A stretch of 40,344 bases of DNA from positions 1 through 40,344 of the forward strand of contig DYDB01000010.1 of assembly GCA_020718085.1 (NCBI GenBank), written 5' to 3'. Both the position numbers and the translations under genes were made by a program. The stretch is from Micavibrio sp. Lineage in GTDB: Bacteria > Patescibacteriota > Minisyncoccia > Moranbacterales > GCA-2747515. The notes beneath the pieces are model-generated. The model was not told where the DNA came from. It saw only the letters and a list, made by a program, of their open reading frames with translations, and made no database searches. Shown in pieces: positions 65-8,969 of this stretch. Position 1 is the first letter of the stretch. Each line of letters begins with the position of its first letter.

Positions 65-748
65 ATGAAAATTCAAAATTCTCAAAAAAAAGATGCACTG
101 ATTATTGGTCCGGCGCTCGCTGTCGATACAATGATCTTTGCCATACGAGAGGGTAAACTTTGTGTATTGCTTATTCAGATCGGCACTGGTCCGTATAAAG
201 ATCAGTGGGCTTTGCCAGGGGGCATTGTGCAGATCGGTGAAACGCTTGATGAAGCGGCGCAAAATGTTTTGGCAAAAAAAGCCGGCATCAAAGGATTACA
301 TCTGGAACAATTATATAGTTTCAGTAAGTTGGATCGTGATGTGCGTGGAAGAGTGGTTTCTGTAGCGTATTTTGCACTAGTAGATAGTGATAAATTTTCT
401 GTTGAAACAATGGACTATTACATGGCGATTGATTGGAAAAATGTGGAAAAATTGCCGAAAATGGCATTTGATCACAAAGAAATGATCCAATATGGAGTAA
501 AAAGATTGTGTGCCAAAATTGAATATTCAAATATTGTTTATGGTCTGCTACCTAAAGAATTTACGCTTACAGAAATGCAATCAGTATATGAAGCAATTGT
601 TGGGCACGTAATAGATAAAAGAAATTTTCGCAAAAAAATTCTTGCACTGAACATTCTTGTAGAAACGGATAAGGAGCGTACGGGACAAAAGAATCGTCCG
701 GCAAAATTGTACCAATTCAGAAAAAGACAACTGGTGTTTACGGATTAG
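65..748 (+). CDS. nrtR: NrtR-type transcriptional regulator of NAD metabolism (degenerate Nudix domain plus winged helix)
   Basis: The 227-residue protein has an N-terminal Nudix fold (about 15-145) and a C-terminal winged helix (about 150-225) with the family pattern FTLTEMQSVYE, DKRNFRKK and RPAKLYQF. In the Nudix box, G-x5-E is kept at 53-59, but the REUxEExG part reads NVLAKKAG (67-74), so all catalytic glutamates are gone. NrtR proteins are known to sense ADP-ribose or related NAD metabolites through this domain and to repress NAD salvage genes, and many have lost hydrolase activity. The context agrees: five matching operators lie at this gene and at two NAD operons downstream. There is no clear Shine-Dalgarno sequence before the ATG. 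A plain Nudix hydrolase is unlikely given the lost box and the winged helix. Confidence 0.88.
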   Translation: MKIQNSQKKDALIIGPALAVDTMIFAIREGKLCVLLIQIGTGPYKDQWALPGGIVQIGETLDEAAQNVLAKKAGIKGLHLEQLYSFSKLDRDVRGRVVSVAYFALVDSDKFSVETMDYYMAIDWKNVEKLPKMAFDHKEMIQYGVKRLCAKIEYSNIVYGLLPKEFTLTEMQSVYEAIVGHVIDKRNFRKKILALNILVETDKERTGQKNRPAKLYQFRKRQLVFTD

Positions 749-853: not shown

Positions 854-868
854 GTGTACTCTTGACAC
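854..868. promoter_or_regulatory. Upstream GTGT-N7-ACAC operator of NAD operon A
   Basis: GTGT (854-857) and ACAC (865-868) flank seven bases and overlap the -35 hexamer at 862-867. The matching site of operon B (8093-8107) has the same placement. Part of the right half is forced by the TTGACA box, so this site is less certain than the downstream one at 903. Confidence 0.5.
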
Positions 869-890
869 GATTTAAACCATATGCTAAGAT
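862..890 (+). promoter_or_regulatory. Sigma-70 type promoter of NAD operon A
   Basis: TTGACA (862-867), a 17-base spacer and TAAGAT (885-890). The first 11 bases of the -35/spacer region are identical to the operon B promoter at 8101. Transcription should start near 897, which puts the operator at 903-917 just inside the transcript. Confidence 0.8.
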
Positions 891-902
891 GAGGTCAGAT
901 AG

Positions 903-917
903 GTGTAACATATACAC
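903..917. promoter_or_regulatory. Downstream GTGT-N7-ACAC operator of NAD operon A
   Basis: GTGTAACATATACAC is followed by TAAGT, matching the operators at 34 and 8142. It starts 41 bases after the first base of the -35 box, exactly as in operon B. Its centre is 49 bp from the centre of the upstream site. A repressor bound here would block early elongation. Confidence 0.7.
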
Positions 918-947: not shown

Positions 948-1110
948 GAAACACGACAAATCTCACATATTTGAGGAAGGTTTTTCTCGAGACCCTTTCT
1001 CTCTCTGTGATGCACAATGTGCGTTAGTCGTGTTTCTCACTTGGACATCATGGAGAGATCTATAAGGATCTCGGCAAAAAGCCTGGCTCAATGGGAGTGC
1101 AGGCTTTTTG
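948..1110 (+). promoter_or_regulatory. Structured 5' leader RNA of NAD operon A (candidate novel riboswitch or attenuator, copy 1)
   Basis: A 10-bp closing stem pairs 948-957 with 1027-1036 (GAAACACGAC with GTCGTGTTTC). Inside are a CUCA/UGAG hairpin and an alternative stem GAGGAAGG (973-980) with CCUUUCUC. After it come a perfect hairpin GAGAUC-UAUAAG-GAUCUC (1055-1072) and a terminator hairpin (1076-1109). The same elements occur in the same order at 8189-8340 before nadD, although the flanking bases differ. AAGGUUUUU (977-985) can also pair with the left terminator arm (1076-1084, bulged G), which would prevent termination. I know no riboswitch family with this layout; the nadA and pnuC NAD motifs do not appear to match. 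The ligand is unknown, with an NAD-related metabolite the obvious guess. Confidence 0.65.
1076..1109 (+). terminator. Leader terminator (attenuator) of NAD operon A
   Basis: AAAAAGCCTG (1076-1085) pairs perfectly with CAGGCTTTTT (1100-1109), leaving a 14-base loop. The T-run is part of the right arm. It lies between the promoter and the first gene, so it should act as an attenuator and not as an operon end. Confidence 0.7.
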
Positions 1111-1143
1111 TATCTTAACAATTACATATGAGGAGGATGGATC

Positions 1144-2679
1144 ATGCAACTTAATGATTATCGTGCACTGTTTGGCAAGAAACAATACGCGTCGGTCTCA
1201 GGGCTGTGCGGACGGATCATTCGCGGTACAAAACCGGAAGACTTCGCAACGCTCACTGACGATCCTACGCGCAAACTGGTCATGCTCATGGGTCCGGATG
1301 GATTGGAAAGGATCATGGACAAGACCGGCTATGAGGCACTGGTGACGATCGGGTATGAACCGAATTACATTGTTCGCAAAGTAGTGGATGAAGGAAATCA
1401 ATTCAAACTGGTGGTTTTTGCGGAAGGAGGCGAGGCGAAGTTGGCAACATGGGACAATGTTGCCACTGTAGTTGCTTCCGTATATCCGCGGATCGCTGGG
1501 AATCTCTATCGCAATCTCGATGCGCTAAAAAAGATGTCTTTTGCGCAAATCGAAAAGCAATCAGGATTTTGTTTTGCAGATGTCGATAAGGCTGGCGCGC
1601 AAGATAATCGCTTCATGACGTATGAACGATTTCTTGCAAGCGGCGGTGACCTTGTCGCAGCGCGTGCATTTCTGTATTTCTCCGTTCATTTGCGAGAACT
1701 GTTTTCCGGTGACGGATATACCTATGACGCACAAGGAAATCGCGGGTTGATGGAATATATTGTGCCCAACAAGCCGTTAAACGAGCTTGGTGATCATGAT
1801 GTGATCGACCTGCCGGTATCTGTACCACAACCATCAATTACGAGTAATAAAGGGAGAAAAACTATGAACATTCAACTGCTCATCATCGACCCACAAAACG
1901 ATTTTATGGACATGCCGGAATCTGCGTTGCCTGTTGCTGGTGCTGTTGCGGACATGCAACGCACTGCAGTGCTCATCGATCGTGTCGGGAAAAAGTTAAC
2001 TGACATCCACGTGACTTTGGATAGTCACAGACTTCTGGATATCGCACACCCGGCGTGGTGGATCAATGCGCGAGGAGACAATCCTGCGCCGTTTACGATC
2101 ATCTCTGAAGATGATGTGGCAAATGGCATCTGGACGCCGCGCAATCCGCGGTTTCGAGAACGAGCACTGCGGTATGTGGCAGACCTGGCGCGTGGCGGAA
2201 AATATCCGCTTTGCATCTGGCCACCACACTGTTTGATCGGTACGTGGGGACATAATGTACAAGCTGATCTCAATCGCGCTCTTCAAGAATGGTCGAAGAA
2301 GGAATTTGCGATGGTTGATTATGTGACCAAAGGATCCAATCCGTGGACGGAGCATTATGGTGCTCTGATGGCTGAGGTGCCTGACCCGGAAGATCCCACC
2401 ACGATGATCAATCGTGATTTTCTCACCATGTTGCAGGAAGCAGACATTGTGGCTGTTGCCGGTGAGGCACTCAGTCACTGCGTCAAAGAAACTGTGACAC
2501 AGATCGCCGATAATATCGGAGATGAACACATTAAAAAGTTCGTTATATTGACGGATTGTTCCTCTCCTGTTGGAGCTGTGCCCGGTGGGCCGGACTTTCC
2601 GGCAATCGCCGATGCGTGGCTGCGGGACATGGAAAAGCGCGGTATGAAGTTGATGACATCTGGACAGTTTTTGGCCTAA
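1144..2679 (+). CDS. pncA: Unknown N-terminal domain fused to a nicotinamidase (PncA-like) domain
   Basis: The start has a strong AGGAGG seven bases upstream. Residues 1 to about 235 match no family I recognise. From residue 241 (ATG at 1864) there is a complete isochorismatase-fold nicotinamidase: IIDPQNDF with the catalytic Asp, DSHRLLDIAH with the metal ligands, a Lys in TKGSNPW, and the nucleophile Cys in EALSHCV. It would convert nicotinamide to nicotinate, the first step of the salvage pathway completed by operon B. An AAAGGGAG ribosome-binding sequence precedes the internal ATG at 1864. In the neighbouring frame a TAATAA lies just before it, so the fusion may come from a one-base change joining two genes, or the nicotinamidase may also be made separately. 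It is the first gene of operon A. Confidence 0.8.
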   Translation: MQLNDYRALFGKKQYASVSGLCGRIIRGTKPEDFATLTDDPTRKLVMLMGPDGLERIMDKTGYEALVTIGYEPNYIVRKVVDEGNQFKLVVFAEGGEAKLATWDNVATVVASVYPRIAGNLYRNLDALKKMSFAQIEKQSGFCFADVDKAGAQDNRFMTYERFLASGGDLVAARAFLYFSVHLRELFSGDGYTYDAQGNRGLMEYIVPNKPLNELGDHDVIDLPVSVPQPSITSNKGRKTMNIQLLIIDPQNDFMDMPESALPVAGAVADMQRTAVLIDRVGKKLTDIHVTLDSHRLLDIAHPAWWINARGDNPAPFTIISEDDVANGIWTPRNPRFRERALRYVADLARGGKYPLCIWPPHCLIGTWGHNVQADLNRALQEWSKKEFAMVDYVTKGSNPWTEHYGALMAEVPDPEDPTTMINRDFLTMLQEADIVAVAGEALSHCVKETVTQIADNIGDEHIKKFVILTDCSSPVGAVPGGPDFPAIADAWLRDMEKRGMKLMTSGQFLA

Positions 2680-2797: not shown

Positions 2798-3553
2798 ATG
2801 CCACGACTTAATGACAGTATGGAATTTGGCAAGATTGGTGGAGCAAACGGGTTTGGTTTCTCGGGTATTCGTACAGAACATCTCGGGGCAACCGAATATA
2901 CTTTGGTAACTATTGCAATCGATGTTACCGGTTCGGTAGGGGGATTTGAAGCAGAATTACTGCGGTGTCTAAAGACTGCGGTGGATGCCTGCAAGAAATC
3001 TCCCAGATCTGACAATCTGCTTCTCCGAGTTATTCTCTTTTCCACCATTTATGCAAATGGTGTGGAAGAACTGCATGGCTTCAAGCCACTTGCAGACATT
3101 GATCCGCAAAAGGACTATAAACAATTGCGGACCGGCGGTGGTACACCGCTACGCGACGCATGCTATAGTGCGATCGGTGCGATGAATGCCTACGGTAAGA
3201 AGCTGTCCGATGATGACTTCGGTGTCAATGCAATCGCGTTTATCATTACTGATGGTGATGATAACGCATCTGCGGCAACCGAGAATATGATCAAACAAGA
3301 GATCGCACAGGCGATTTCCGGTGAAATCTTAGAATCTATGGTCAGCGTGCTGATCGGGATCAATGCCGCATCGTACAAAAATGAACTGGAAGAATTCCAG
3401 TTGAATGTCGGTATCACACAGTATATCGATGCAGGGGACGCTACCGCTGGAAAATTGGCACGCTTGGCAGAATTCGTCAGTCGCTCGATTGCGTCGCAAT
3501 CGCAGGCAATGGGTACTGGTGGACCAAGTCAAAATATCTCCGCAACCATCTAA
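2798..3553 (+). CDS. vWA-domain protein, TerY-like
   Basis: The 251-residue protein is a single von Willebrand A domain. The MIDAS metal site is visible as D42-V-T44-G-S46, T116 in GGGTPLRDA, and D152 in FIITDGDD. There is no signal peptide or membrane segment, so it should be cytoplasmic. Together with the following PP2C and kinase genes it reproduces the TerY-P triad known from tellurite/stress-response loci, where the vWA protein probably acts as a metal-dependent scaffold or substrate of the kinase/phosphatase pair. No TerD, TerC or TerB gene is visible here. The start has AAGGAGG upstream. The annotation as TerY-like rests on the context and the compact single-domain form. Confidence 0.82.
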   Translation: MPRLNDSMEFGKIGGANGFGFSGIRTEHLGATEYTLVTIAIDVTGSVGGFEAELLRCLKTAVDACKKSPRSDNLLLRVILFSTIYANGVEELHGFKPLADIDPQKDYKQLRTGGGTPLRDACYSAIGAMNAYGKKLSDDDFGVNAIAFIITDGDDNASAATENMIKQEIAQAISGEILESMVSVLIGINAASYKNELEEFQLNVGITQYIDAGDATAGKLARLAEFVSRSIASQSQAMGTGGPSQNISATI

Positions 3554-3580
3554 ATGGTGATGCGGGAACATAAAAACCTG

Positions 3581-3620
3581 CGGGCACGCGATCATCGATC
3601 GTCGTGCCCGTATTCTTTTT
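3581..3620 (+). terminator. Strong hairpin with T-rich tail between the vWA and PP2C genes
   Basis: CGGGCACG (3581-3588) pairs with CGTGCCCG (3603-3610), with CGATC/GATCG inside, followed by TATTCTTTTT. This looks like an intrinsic terminator, but the PP2C gene follows 16 bases later and no clear promoter is seen. It may be a partial terminator that lowers expression of the last two genes, or an RNA-stability hairpin. Confidence 0.6.
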
Positions 3621-3635
3621 CTCCAGGAGGCATAT

Positions 3636-4496
3636 ATGAAACGAGTGGATGAGTATTTTACGATTGGATTACAACATCGTGCAGATGGCAAGCCCTGTCA
3701 GGATCATGCGTTATCCGGACATGATGCACAAGAACATGCATATGTCAGTATCGCAGATGGATGCTCCAGTGGTGGAGCAACGGATATGGGCGCACGGATC
3801 GTGAACTATGCGACAATGCAGGCAATCAAAAACATGATCTCATGGCGGAGGAAGTATGATCTTGTCGCGGACATGGTGACAGACGTCGTCAGTCAACGAC
3901 TTCTCACCATTGATCGCGTGCATCGAGAACTGCATATGCAGTACGAAGATCTTCTTGCAACCAATATTTATGTATTCAGCAATCAAGCGCATACCTATGC
4001 ACATGTTGTAGGTGATGGGATCATTGCTGTAGCGATGGTGAATGGATCTACCGAAATGTGGCGATATTTTTGGGCAGATAATACCCCATATTATCCCGCA
4101 TATGATCTTGGTAAACAGGAGCAATTCATCATTGCACACGGTGCCGACGGTATGAAAAATCGTCTTACAGAAGAGCAATGGATCATTGGTGCCGATGGTC
4201 AGGTGACATGTGTGGGTATCACAGAACAGATGATTTTACATGGTATGCGCGGCGTAACGATCGATCTGACAGAGAAGATACGCTGTGGATTGGTGAAGAC
4301 TGTGGCGATTTTCTCTGATGGCGCAGAATTGGTTGATGGACTGACATGGCAACAGGTCATTGGGCAAAGCATGGCATATAAGAACGTCACAGGTGCGTTT
4401 GTCAAAAGACGCATGATGCGACTCATGCGAGATGTATCAAAGGAATATAAGGGGCCGCTGGATGATATTGCTTGTGCGGCTATTCACTTTTCATGA
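3636..4496 (+). CDS. PP2C-family serine/threonine phosphatase of the TerY-P-like triad
   Basis: The 286-residue protein shows the PP2C metal-binding signatures: QDH near residue 22, ADGCSSGGATDMG with D41-G42, VVGDG in the middle, FSDGAEL, and a C-terminal DDIACAAI. It would dephosphorylate Ser/Thr residues, most simply those modified by the kinase encoded 20 bases downstream. No membrane segment is present. The ATG is preceded by AGGAGG with a six-base spacing. The stop is TGA, which shows that TGA is not recoded in this genome. Confidence 0.85.
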   Translation: MKRVDEYFTIGLQHRADGKPCQDHALSGHDAQEHAYVSIADGCSSGGATDMGARIVNYATMQAIKNMISWRRKYDLVADMVTDVVSQRLLTIDRVHRELHMQYEDLLATNIYVFSNQAHTYAHVVGDGIIAVAMVNGSTEMWRYFWADNTPYYPAYDLGKQEQFIIAHGADGMKNRLTEEQWIIGADGQVTCVGITEQMILHGMRGVTIDLTEKIRCGLVKTVAIFSDGAELVDGLTWQQVIGQSMAYKNVTGAFVKRRMMRLMRDVSKEYKGPLDDIACAAIHFS

Positions 4497-4516
4497 AAAT
4501 AAAGGAGAAATGAATC

Positions 4517-6247
4517 ATGACAAAGATCACGCGAAAAACTGAAGTGATGTTGGAAGGACGGGGCATGGTCGAGTTACAGCCGCGTGATCACATGATCACC
4601 GGAGGTGAGGGTTCGATCTACAAAAAAAACAATACAGTGATCAAGTTATATACTGATTCCGACAAGATGAGCCGCGACGGTATGCTGGAAAAGATCATTG
4701 CTCTCAAGCGCGTAGAACATCCGTTTATTGTGACGCCGGAAAATATCGTTACAGATCGTTCCGGCATACCAATCGGATATTACATGCCATTTGTTATGGG
4801 AGAGCCGATCACGCGTGTGTTTACCAATGATTATCGTGCACGATCCCAGTTTGGTGATGATGATGCGCATATTCTTGTAGATCGCATGCGTACAGTTGTC
4901 CAACATGTACACAGTAAAAATGTGATCATGGTGGATGCCAATGAGATGAATTGGCTGGTGGATGAGCACAAAAAACATGCACCGGAACCGCGTGCGATCG
5001 ATGTGGATGCATGGGCGATCGATCGATGGCAAGCACGTGTGATCATGCCCTCAATCCGTGATTGGCATGCAAAGAAATTTGGTGCACTGAGCGATTGGTT
5101 TGCGTGGGGGATCGTGACGTTTCAAGTGTATACCGGTATTCATCCATATAAGGGACGACTCCCGGGATACGTTCAACATGATCTTGTGAAGCGTATGCAA
5201 GATAATGCATCGGTGTTTCACAGTAATGTACGACTCAATCATGCTGTACGAGATTTTGGATCAATTCCTGCCGCTCTACGTATATGGTATGAGGATGTGT
5301 TTGCCAAAGGTAAGCGCGCAGTACCACCGTCACCTTTTGATGTTGGGAAGATCGTGCCAGTATGTGGACGCGTTGCGCATGCGCAAACAACCACACATGG
5401 CATGTTGATCTTTGAAAAGATGCATGAGAGTGCATCGCAAATCGTGCAGGTATTTGATGATGGTGTGGTACTTTGTGCGGATGGATCGCTTGTCGATGTT
5501 ATTCGCAGAAAAAAAATTTGCACCATTGGGCAAAAACATGTTGCTGTTGTGACACGTCAAGATGGATGGTTTGTGGCATCCTGTGAAAATGACATGCTCA
5601 CATGTCGATTCATCGATCTGCATACTGGCAGTGAAGAGATTGTCGATGTGGCGATCGCTGCGCAGAATATTATGAGTGTACAAAAACGCATGTTCATCGT
5701 CAATGAGCGCGGGTTAACAGAAATTGTTCTGTCGCGTATGAAAAAAGTTCTGATCTCAACAGGTAACACGTGGCCGACACTGCCATATGCTACAAAGTGG
5801 TTTTCCGGTGTGGGCGTGGAGGATGTGATGGGACATGTGCATCTAGTGATCCCATTTGGCGAGCGCGCATGCACAACGATTCGCGCAAAAGAATTGGATG
5901 AAATCACTCCGGTGGCTGGTTACGGCGGTACACGATTTGTGACAATCGTTGGACTGGACTCGCAGGGCATGTATCACAAGTACGAATTTCATTTTGATGC
6001 TGAATATCGTGCGTATGACGTGTGGAGTGATGTGGTGGATCATGCAGAGCTCGTGATCACGACACTGCCAAAAGGTGTGTGTGCAACGATCGTAGAGGAT
6101 GGTACATTGGACATTTTTGTACCGTCACATGGCGCGCATACAAAAGTATCAGATGGATTTATAAAAACAGGTACACATCTGGCACATATTGATAATACTG
6201 TGATCTATACAGATGATCACACTGTATGGCGCGTTCGGATGAAATGA
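4517..6247 (+). CDS. Ser/Thr protein kinase with C-terminal beta-rich (propeller-like) region, TerY-P-like triad
   Basis: The 576-residue protein has an N-terminal kinase fold: a glycine loop GGEGS at 29-33, VIK with Lys43, a catalytic-loop variant with D140 and N145 (MVDANEMNWLVD), and D162 in AIDVDAW replacing DFG. The helix SDWFAWGIVTFQVYTGIHPY is typical of this kinase group. Residues about 285-576 are a series of short beta-strands with repeated GxV and aromatic positions, suggesting a propeller-like sensor, though I cannot assign a family. The unusual HRD and DFG forms are shared by vWA/PP2C-linked kinases. It is the last gene of operon A, followed by a strong terminator. Its substrates are unknown; the vWA protein is the natural candidate. 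Confidence 0.82.
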   Translation: MTKITRKTEVMLEGRGMVELQPRDHMITGGEGSIYKKNNTVIKLYTDSDKMSRDGMLEKIIALKRVEHPFIVTPENIVTDRSGIPIGYYMPFVMGEPITRVFTNDYRARSQFGDDDAHILVDRMRTVVQHVHSKNVIMVDANEMNWLVDEHKKHAPEPRAIDVDAWAIDRWQARVIMPSIRDWHAKKFGALSDWFAWGIVTFQVYTGIHPYKGRLPGYVQHDLVKRMQDNASVFHSNVRLNHAVRDFGSIPAALRIWYEDVFAKGKRAVPPSPFDVGKIVPVCGRVAHAQTTTHGMLIFEKMHESASQIVQVFDDGVVLCADGSLVDVIRRKKICTIGQKHVAVVTRQDGWFVASCENDMLTCRFIDLHTGSEEIVDVAIAAQNIMSVQKRMFIVNERGLTEIVLSRMKKVLISTGNTWPTLPYATKWFSGVGVEDVMGHVHLVIPFGERACTTIRAKELDEITPVAGYGGTRFVTIVGLDSQGMYHKYEFHFDAEYRAYDVWSDVVDHAELVITTLPKGVCATIVEDGTLDIFVPSHGAHTKVSDGFIKTGTHLAHIDNTVIYTDDHTVWRVRMK

Positions 6248-6309: not shown

Positions 6310-7194
6310 CTATATGAGATTGTATGTACCCAGGACCGAAAGGATCTTAGATCGATTGGACTGTGAGATCATTGATAATGGTAAACGACACCTCTCGTGC
6401 ATGAGTCCCATGCGTCCCAAAACCGCTTTGACAGGCGCAGGATTGGTCTCACAAAACAAAATGCGATTGAGCGGATACAACTCGAGGTTCAGTTTCTCTG
6501 CAAAAGGAAGATTCCCTTCAGAATATGCTTTCCACAAAGCAGCAACCCGATCCGGCACCACATTCGATGTGACGGAGATGCAACCCTTACCGCCAAGAGC
6601 GTAAATGAGGAAATTCGATGCATCGTCACCGGACAACACAATGAATTTAGGATCACAGAGATGGATGATCTCGCAAACCTGACCAATGAGCTGTCCACTC
6701 GCTTCTTTGATGCCGATGATATTTTTGTGCTGTGACAACCGGTATACGGTCTGCGGTTCCAAATTCACACCAGTGCGCGTTGGCACATTGTACAGAATGA
6801 TCGGTAGATCAGAGGAATCTGCAACACGAATGAAATGTTGGTACAACCCCTCCTGTGTTGGACGATTGTAATACGGGGTAATGACAAGTGCTGCGTCCGC
6901 ACCAAGTTCTTGCGCGCGACGGATGTTTGCACATGTTTCAGCCGTACTATTGGATCCGACACCAGCGATTACTTTCACACGCCCGCGCACTGTTTGTATA
7001 GTCAATTCAATGACGCGATAATGCTCCTCATAGGTCAGTGTTGCGGATTCACCTGTTGTGCCGACAGGTACGATACCGGCAACGCCAGCAGATATCTGTC
7101 GTTCGATCAGTTGTTGTAAAGCCGCTTCGTCAATCGTGTCATCTTTTGCAAATGGGGTAACGATCGCAGTATTGACGCCGTAGATCTTTAGCAT
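6310..7194 (-). CDS. dapA: 4-hydroxy-tetrahydrodipicolinate synthase
   Basis: The 294-residue protein is a typical DapA-family Schiff-base aldolase: VGTTGESATLTYEEH, the Tyr in YYNRPTQEG, LYNVPTRTG, the Schiff-base Lys in IGIKEASG, and LSGDD. The reaction joins pyruvate and aspartate semialdehyde on the way to diaminopimelate and lysine. The ATG has AAGGAG upstream. It faces away from the ACT-domain gene and lies between the two NAD operons without sharing their promoters. Related aldolases such as N-acetylneuraminate lyase share this fold, but the GTTGE and YYNRP motifs favour DapA. Confidence 0.92.
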   Translation of the reverse strand: MLKIYGVNTAIVTPFAKDDTIDEAALQQLIERQISAGVAGIVPVGTTGESATLTYEEHYRVIELTIQTVRGRVKVIAGVGSNSTAETCANIRRAQELGADAALVITPYYNRPTQEGLYQHFIRVADSSDLPIILYNVPTRTGVNLEPQTVYRLSQHKNIIGIKEASGQLIGQVCEIIHLCDPKFIVLSGDDASNFLIYALGGKGCISVTSNVVPDRVAALWKAYSEGNLPFAEKLNLELYPLNRILFCETNPAPVKAVLGRMGLMHERCRLPLSMISQSNRSKILSVLGTYNLI

Positions 7195-8092: not shown

Positions 8093-8107
8093 GTGTATAC
8101 TTGACAC
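8093..8107. promoter_or_regulatory. Upstream GTGT-N7-ACAC operator of NAD operon B
   Basis: GTGTATACTTGACAC overlaps the -35 box. The sequence ACTTAGTGTATA at 8088-8099 is the exact reverse complement of TATACACTAAGT at 8150-8161, so the promoter is framed by inverted operator half-sites. Confidence 0.6.
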
Positions 8108-8141: not shown

Positions 8142-8156
8142 GTGTATTATATACAC
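8142..8156. promoter_or_regulatory. Downstream GTGT-N7-ACAC operator of NAD operon B
   Basis: GTGTATTATATACAC has six-base perfect arms around three bases and is followed by TAAGT. Its centre is 49 bp from the centre of the upstream site, identical to operon A. Confidence 0.72.
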
Positions 8157-8188
8157 TAAGTAAAAAAGTTCATTATCCAACAATAGAA

Positions 8189-8340
8189 GAAACACGACAA
8201 AACTCACACTGAGGAAGGTTTTTCTCGAGACCCTTTCTCTCTGTAAGAGCGTGCGTTAGTCGTGTTTCTCATGCAATTACAGAGAGATCTATAAGGATCT
8301 CGACAAAAAGCCTTGGCTCTGATGAGTACAAGGTTTTTTG
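8189..8340 (+). promoter_or_regulatory. Structured 5' leader RNA of NAD operon B (candidate novel riboswitch or attenuator, copy 2)
   Basis: It repeats the architecture of 948-1110: the closing stem 8189-8198 with 8259-8268, a CUCA-CAC-UGAG hairpin, the conserved GGAAGGUUUUUCUCGAGACC block, the hairpin GAGAUC-UAUAAG-GAUCUC (8284-8301) and a terminator hairpin (8305-8339). Loops differ between the copies (the CUCA/UGAG loop is three bases here and six in copy 1) while stems persist, which favours RNA-level selection. AAGGUUUUU (8215-8223) can pair with the left terminator arm (8305-8314). The element ends about 45 bases before the nadD start codon. Confidence 0.65.
8305..8339 (+). terminator. 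Leader terminator (attenuator) of NAD operon B
   Basis: AAAAAGCCTTG (8305-8315) pairs with CAAGGTTTTTT (8329-8339), including one G-U pair. Compared with copy 1 the stem has gained a T-A pair and changed G-C to G-U, so pairing is kept despite sequence change. Confidence 0.65.
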
Positions 8341-8384
8341 GTTCTTTGACAATATACACATGTAACGATCGAAGAGGTGAGATC

Positions 8385-8969
8385 ATGAGAATTGCACTTG
8401 GTGGTACTGCAGCTAATCCTGCACATTACGGGCATAAAAGACTTGTAGAAGCAATTATTGATCTAAAATATTTTGATACGATCGCATGGATCGTGTCAGG
8501 TGATCGACCAGACAAGCCCGGCATGCTTCCGGCAATTGACCGCTGGCACATGACGAAACTGCTCATCACAGATCCACGTGTGGATGTCGTGTATGAGGAT
8601 GGGGTGGCTGTCCCGACAGTTGAGGTGATCCGTAAGGCACAAAAAGATTTTCCGTATGCAGATATTACATGGTATTGCGGATTGGATCATTTTGTTGCTC
8701 GTGAACAATTTGATGGGCTATGTAATATCGAAGGGTTTTGGCATGAAGGTGAGATGCTGATGAAAAGACAACACTTTCTGATCGTGAAAAGAAAGGGCTT
8801 GGAGAGATCAGTGACTCGTTACCCAAAGAGATATACATTGATCGATTGTGATATGCCAGATATTTCCAGTACGGAGATTCGTCAACGTCTCGCAAAGGGA
8901 TTGGATAATACGCTGCATACGAGTCAAGCAGTATTGGACTATATTGCAGGGCAAAAACTCTATACATAA
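8385..8969 (+). CDS. nadD: Nicotinate-nucleotide adenylyltransferase
   Basis: The 194-residue protein has the nucleotidyltransferase signature GGTAANPAHYGH at its N-terminus (HxGH) and ISSTEIRQRL near the C-terminus, as in NadD. It transfers AMP from ATP to nicotinate mononucleotide. The ATG at 8385 was chosen because GAGGTGA lies just upstream and the protein then begins directly at the first beta strand; an upstream in-frame start at 8313 would lie inside the leader terminator. It is the first gene of operon B, and the neighbours pncB, nadK and nadE fix its role. A nicotinamide-nucleotide preference cannot be excluded. Confidence 0.88.
   Translation: MRIALGGTAANPAHYGHKRLVEAIIDLKYFDTIAWIVSGDRPDKPGMLPAIDRWHMTKLLITDPRVDVVYEDGVAVPTVEVIRKAQKDFPYADITWYCGLDHFVAREQFDGLCNIEGFWHEGEMLMKRQHFLIVKRKGLERSVTRYPKRYTLIDCDMPDISSTEIRQRLAKGLDNTLHTSQAVLDYIAGQKLYT

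Follow-up and report, generated by a model that had tools for sequence, protein, structure and literature searches.

The NAD locus and its duplicated leader

The analysed stretch (the window, 40,344 nt of contig DYDB01000010.1) belongs to a genome of 1.29 Mb, to which a Ca. Moraniibacteriota MAG is a near relative. It contains a gene for an NrtR-type repressor and two NAD operons, A and B, each preceded by a copy of the same leader (copy 1, 946-1112; copy 2, 8187-8340) (Table 1). The fusion protein encoded first in operon A scores against NF008623 (E=1.4e-4) and Isochorismatase (E=0.014), both under cut-off, and its gene is followed by three others, including one that scores as PP2C and one as protein kinase. 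No Pfam family above threshold was found for its N-terminal ~240 residues (window 1144-1860); the relatives G004 and G130 have this domain, and G113 and contig JALULG010000009 (JALULG below) lack it ahead of the nicotinamidase. At 2798-6247, downstream of the nicotinamidase, lie a gene that weakly matches vWA-containing chelatase subunits and genes for a PP2C phosphatase and a protein kinase; all are kept in JALULG and G004, and possibly they encode a TerY-P-like phosphorylation triad linked to NAD. In operon B, nadD is followed by genes for NAPRTase, NAD kinase and NAD synthase.

Five NrtR-type palindromes were found in total, one ahead of nrtR and two at each NAD promoter, those at 34-48, 903-917 and 8142-8156 having the form GTGTAnnnTATACAC. 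At each NAD promoter, the palindrome overlapping the -35 element and that following the -10 element lie ~49 bp apart, suggesting paired-site repression, and the palindrome before nrtR suggests autoregulation. The nrtR product is the probable owner of these operators. With an NrtR-type protein and matching operators both present, the promoter layer is predicted to be an NrtR regulon. The promoter of copy 2 has, judged by eye, the same spacing as that of operon A. A boxA-like element, UUCUUURACAA, lies 3' of the terminator in most NAD leaders (8341-8352 in the window) and also ahead of leaderless NAD operons of relatives; its count within the window alone is at chance level, and a role in Nus-factor antitermination is possible.

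Table 1 Features of the two leaders, their promoters and neighbouring genes (positions in the window)
Feature	Position	Strand	Sequence or motif	Remark
NrtR-type repressor (NUDIX + NrtR_WHD)	65-748	+		NF050029 170 bits, under 400 cut-off
NrtR-type imperfect palindrome	854-868	+	GTGTACTCTTGACAC	overlaps -35; kept in copy 2 (8093-8107), G004 and G001
Operon A promoter	862-890	+	TTGACA, 17-nt spacer, TAAGAT, extended TG	
NrtR-type operator	903-917	+	GTGTAACATATACAC	just 3' of promoter; also 34-48 (before nrtR) and 8142-8156 (copy 2)
P1 5' strand	948-957	+	GAAACACGAC	from fold and comparison
P3 5' strand	973-980	+	GAGGAAGG	overlaps antiterminator 5' strand
Antiterminator 5' strand	977-997	+	AAGGUUUUUCUCGAGACCCUU	pairs with 1064-1084
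Antiterminator segment	977-985	+	AAGGTTTTT	
P3 3' strand	994-1001	+	CCTTTCTC / CCUUUCUC	
P4 5' strand (linker La)	1000-1012	+		inside closed domain
P1 3' strand	1027-1036	+	GTCGTGTTTC / GUCGUGUUUC	sits in loop of alternative hairpin
P4 3' strand (Lb)	1046-1058	+		3' of closed domain
Local hairpin	1055-1073	+	GAGAUC-UAUAAG-GAUCUC	competitor of P4 and antiterminator helix B
Antiterminator 3' strand	1064-1084	+	AAGGAUCUCGGCAAAAAGCCU	3' half is the left terminator arm
Intrinsic terminator hairpin and U tract	1074-1111	+		arms 1074-1089/1095-1111
Operon A gene 1: N-terminal domain fused to nicotinamidase/isochorismatase-like domain	1144-2679	+		
Copy 2 P1 5' strand	8189-8198	+		
Copy 2 antiterminator 5' strand	8215-8235	+		
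Copy 2 P4 5' strand	8237-8246	+	CUCUCUGUAA	
Copy 2 P1 3' strand	8259-8268	+		
Copy 2 P4 3' strand	8277-8286	+	UUACAGAGAG	inverted repeat
Copy 2 antiterminator 3' strand	8293-8314	+		
Copy 2 terminator	8303-8341	+		
Operon B gene 1: nicotinate-nucleotide adenylyltransferase (nadD)	8385-8969	+		

The two copies are 81% identical across ~230 nt, operator included, and are the only ones in their own genome. Both fold more stably than dinucleotide shuffles (z = -6.45 for copy 1 and -5.66 for copy 2). The original prediction placed a closing stem (P1), an inner stem (P3), the GAGAUC hairpin, a terminator and an antiterminator in copy 1 and announced a second copy, and all of these were recovered where predicted. 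The copy 1 terminator was overlooked in a simple terminator scan because of its bulge. The antiterminator, although present, had been drawn too short: the duplex is about twice as long (~20 bp, 977-997 with 1064-1084), and the "bulged G" proposed within it is more plausibly a U.G wobble, given the C-G pair at that position in G113 and JALULG.

Within a single genome, antiterminator complementarity is not exceptional. A survey of 1.09 Mb of their own genome gave 1,066 terminator-like sites, among which the two leaders ranked 47th and 29th, making antiterminator energy alone a poor genome-wide discriminator, and gapped pair counts likewise separated the leaders poorly from other terminator-like sites. 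When a duplex of -19.9 kcal/mol or lower was combined with a nested helix of -20 kcal/mol or lower, thresholds that were picked after the values of the leaders were known, only the two leaders qualified (2 of 1,067 sites). The case for a switch therefore rests on comparative evidence from covariation.

Homologues among Patescibacteria

Ten leaders were found in nine Patescibacteria genomes, from the Ca. Moraniibacteriota order and one unclassified MAG; eight of the nine belong to the 131 genomes examined for the order. Two genomes within the genus yielded leaders in a DNA search, and a four-sequence covariance model retrieved those of G113 and G130 (other families), JALULG and, weakly, G003. 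A pattern based on P1 had seven exact sites in the 131 genomes and none in a reversed control, and uncovered an intermediate form in G125 that bridges the NAD type (AGGAAGGUUUUUCUCGAGACC) and the G003 type (AGGAAAGUUCCUUGCAAGAC). The leader of G007, whose P1 differs (AUCAAAUGUGAA/UUCACAUUUGAU), was retrieved with a nine-sequence model. Thus, the covariance-model search of relatives proposed with the original prediction led to homologues beyond the window, and the element is not peculiar to the locus where it was first described.

These ten sequences, seven of which are close in the core, perhaps represent four or five independent lineages. In all ten, a terminator hairpin is positioned between the switch and the gene. 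No extra members were found in 384 genomes of the class (models R2 and R3) or 380 of the phylum (model R3), strict filters being applied in these large searches. The leader is not universal: within the order, five genomes carry a clearly related nicotinamidase gene without it. When the window and five homologous loci were compared with Rfam 15, no family reached its gathering score; the best sub-threshold match, to Thr_leader (E 0.042, 22 bits vs 55), is at chance level.

Several candidates were rejected. Weak covariance-model matches in G024, G002, G123, G055, G033, G765, G240 and G125:C48 lacked a credible P1 followed by a terminator, and the rejected weak matches (L136-L141, L205, L105) lay mostly within reading frames. 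Pattern matches in G118 and G039 had no P1 or terminator and were mostly inside genes, and seven matches to a core 16-mer on viral contigs gave no covariance-model match. Two further observations concern the genomes searched. The minus strand of G003:C71 (L123 3200-7250) carries, near a TrmB regulator, a small GC-richer gene cluster without assigned function, whose genes are spaced by long, repeated and strongly self-complementary intergenic stretches (CUCUCUAA...UUAGAGGG). L046, from a record titled Thermosynechococcus sp. MAG, carries a close homologue (67%) of the Patescibacteria nicotinamidase and may be a mis-binned contig.

Compensatory change and two exclusive folds

The closing stem and the antiterminator, for which a search for compensatory changes had been suggested, both vary while remaining paired. 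Alignments A7-A9 were hand-registered and had their bulges excised, a procedure that is biased towards structure, and the shuffles ignore relatedness. Double-sided changes were found in 6 of the 10 pairs of P1 (G007 counted; 98% of cells paired), in 6 of the 17 antiterminator pairs and in all six sampled pairs of P4 (98.3% of cells paired). P3 has double-sided changes in two of its eight pairs. In the antiterminator, 92.6% of cells are paired, compared with 20-60% after sliding by 1-3, and its cognate duplexes have energies of -24 to -33 kcal/mol, compared with -7 to -21 kcal/mol when strands of the NAD group are crossed with those of the G003/G125 group.

P4 is a further helix, joining the "variable" linker of the closed domain to the stretch just 3' of P1, and its sequence is particular to each leader. 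In an alignment-free swap test, its mean energy was -15.3 kcal/mol for cognate partners vs -5.8 kcal/mol for swapped ones, and none of 20,000 permutations equalled the real pairing; the weak case is G125 (-5.7 kcal/mol, second-ranked). P4 is nested in the antiterminator, and together they make a single giant hairpin whose loop encloses the 3' strand of P1, so that the full giant hairpin and P1 are mutually exclusive. Covariation was thus found in both folds of the terminator/antiterminator switch that had been predicted, with compensatory changes in P1, P3, the antiterminator and P4.

These features are those of a transcription attenuator: an intrinsic terminator lies between promoter and first gene, and the sequence comparison points to an antiterminator that excludes it and to an upstream domain that excludes the antiterminator, each conserved through compensatory change. 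The leader therefore probably represents a new family of bistable transcription attenuator RNAs. A DNA-level or mobile inverted-repeat element is a very improbable alternative. The minus strand does score weakly too, since the element is near-palindromic, but terminator and gene lie on the same strand in every case, the genome has only two copies, and the sequences of P4, the antiterminator and P1 vary among genomes yet remain complementary.

As an attenuator, the leader would act as a second control layer beneath the promoter with its NrtR-type operators. In state T, P1 and P3 would close during transcription and sequester the antiterminator 5' strand in P3, the terminator ahead of the first gene would form, and transcription would stop. 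In state R, P1/P3 would open or never form, and La would pair with Lb as P4; from P4 the duplex would zip outward via antiterminator helix B and then helix A, which would capture the emerging left terminator arm while the right arm has yet to be transcribed. The giant hairpin would then hold that arm, and RNA polymerase would read on. We infer this order of events, that state R is the ON state and that an outside signal chooses between the states. Antiterminator helix B and P4 are compatible with the terminator and only helix A excludes it, so read-through requires helix A to win kinetically. In some leaders, a shortened P4 and P1 might instead coexist as a pseudoknot, which is hardly possible in G007 because almost no bases lie between the two strands.

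The calculated energies of the two states (first/second) are -65.7/-64.3 kcal/mol for copy 1, -59.1/-58.8 for copy 2, -69.6/-69.6 for G001 and -46.3/-45.6 for JALULG. The states lie within 0-1.5 kcal/mol in these four leaders and in those of G004 and G125; the leaders of G113 and G130 favour the first state, and those of G003 and G007 the second. In this energy model, near-equal states are what a switch requires, short of proof. They would also suit a constitutive partial terminator, in which both folds exist and nothing selects between them, as would the presence of the same operon type without a leader in several relatives and the lack of a known effector. Such a terminator is nevertheless doubtful, as two exclusive, covarying folds kept over divergent sequences are hard to explain without switching.

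Two structural details vary among the leaders. The apical part of P3 (985-992) is an 8-nt palindrome, UCUCGAGA in the NAD type and CUUGCAAG in G003, G007 and G125, which could permit loop-loop dimers. In G001 (L032 5775-5880) and G004 (L033 5245-5300), a different hairpin (GUAGAGACAC...) replaces GAGAUC-UAUAAG-GAUCUC; it looks like an inserted repeat, because similar hairpins stand elsewhere in relatives (e.g. L123).

The nature of the signal and comparison with known systems

The original prediction described the leader as NAD-linked, which fits seven of the ten, found on NrtR-type promoters that as a rule belong to NAD operons, but does not define the element. Most operons of this group carry nicotinamidase, nadD, pncB or NAD kinase genes; the G001 leader precedes a kinase gene in a cluster that also has nicotinamidase and nadD-like genes. 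The other three precede a gene for an SPFH/Band_7 protein (G007) or for proteins without a family match (G003, G125), each near a TrmB-family regulator gene. The RNA is thus mostly, not exclusively, an NAD element, and one consistent pathway does not cover all ten leaders.

If the leader were a riboswitch for an NAD-pathway metabolite (NAD+, NMN, nicotinate mononucleotide or ADP-ribose), the ligand would stabilise P1-P3 and cause termination as end-product feedback. The bistable energies and the seven leaders ahead of operons with NrtR operators, most with NAD genes, are consistent with this, as is the near-invariant core of these seven, P1 included, which pairing alone need not demand and which makes contact with a ligand or protein possible. 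However, three homologues precede non-NAD genes, few unpaired positions are common to all ten leaders and no large invariant unpaired core is apparent among them, most of the conserved bases are in doubly paired strands that are slow to change anyway, and control by NAD or ADP-ribose is already supplied by NrtR, which makes a metabolite riboswitch unlikely. We give a similarly low probability to an NAD-pathway riboswitch of a third class, unrelated to the known two, or to a modular aptamer-attenuator that Patescibacteria would place beneath different repressors; ligand-bound P1-P3 would then prevent the giant antiterminator hairpin.

Because the same RNA precedes unrelated operons beside TrmB-type regulators, we doubt that NAD metabolites alone provide the signal, and it may be general. 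The form of explanation that we favour, with roughly an even chance of being right, is an attenuator with a general gate (an RNA-binding protein, RNA polymerase speed or NTP level, Nus factors or another RNA) that would tighten or time locally repressed operons. It is suggested by the TrmB-family regulator gene near all three non-NAD leaders, by the nrtR genes adjoining several NAD leaders and by the boxA-like element after most NAD-type terminators; on the other side, no candidate protein was found, the adjacency to regulators comes from few cases, and the role of boxA is putative.

The pyr (PyrR) leader and the S-box are attenuators with a terminator, an antiterminator and an anti-antiterminator. 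The present leader resembles them in that its 5' domain would serve as anti-antiterminator and its antiterminator takes the left terminator arm. It differs from them in sequence and in layout, its antiterminator and P4 merging into a single giant hairpin whose loop contains the P1 3' strand, and neither PyrR nor SAM families of Rfam matched at gathering score.

The leader is also unlike the known NAD riboswitches, as had been predicted. NAD+-I (the nadA motif) consists of two bulged stem-loops in tandem, the bulges being ACANCCCC, and its second domain contains a putative RBS (PMC7297122). It too is a leader of NAD genes for which OFF control is proposed, whereas the present leader has neither tandem bulged stem-loops nor an RBS domain and ends in an intrinsic terminator; the only two occurrences of ACANCCCC in the window, at 6843 and 17694, match chance expectation, and neither lies in a leader. 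NAD+-II (the pnuC motif), a short aptamer, comprises P1, P1a and a pseudoknot that involves the ribosome-binding site, giving translational OFF control (PMC7749635, PMC10085692). It shares with the present leader a place before NAD-salvage genes; here, in contrast, the downstream gene is not pnuC, and the conserved long-range pairing reaches the left terminator arm, which lies about 60-70 nt upstream of the start codon (motif definition, PMC7749635).

As in NrtR regulons, a gene for a NUDIX + NrtR_WHD repressor and palindromic operators at the same promoters are present; the difference is a candidate post-initiation RNA layer below NrtR, of which no report was found in the literature searched. 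Nor did that literature yield a paper combining "Moranbacteria" and "riboswitch" or a description of a native RNA switch in Patescibacteria, in which very little is known of gene regulation. The arrangement suggests a double check on NAD salvage in these small, dependent bacteria, by NrtR at the promoter and by the leader, and the two covarying, exclusive folds are testable with purified RNA and polymerase, without culture of the host. In summary, we regard the leader as real, conserved and new as a family; as an attenuator it is ordinary in kind, and it is unusual in form and host.
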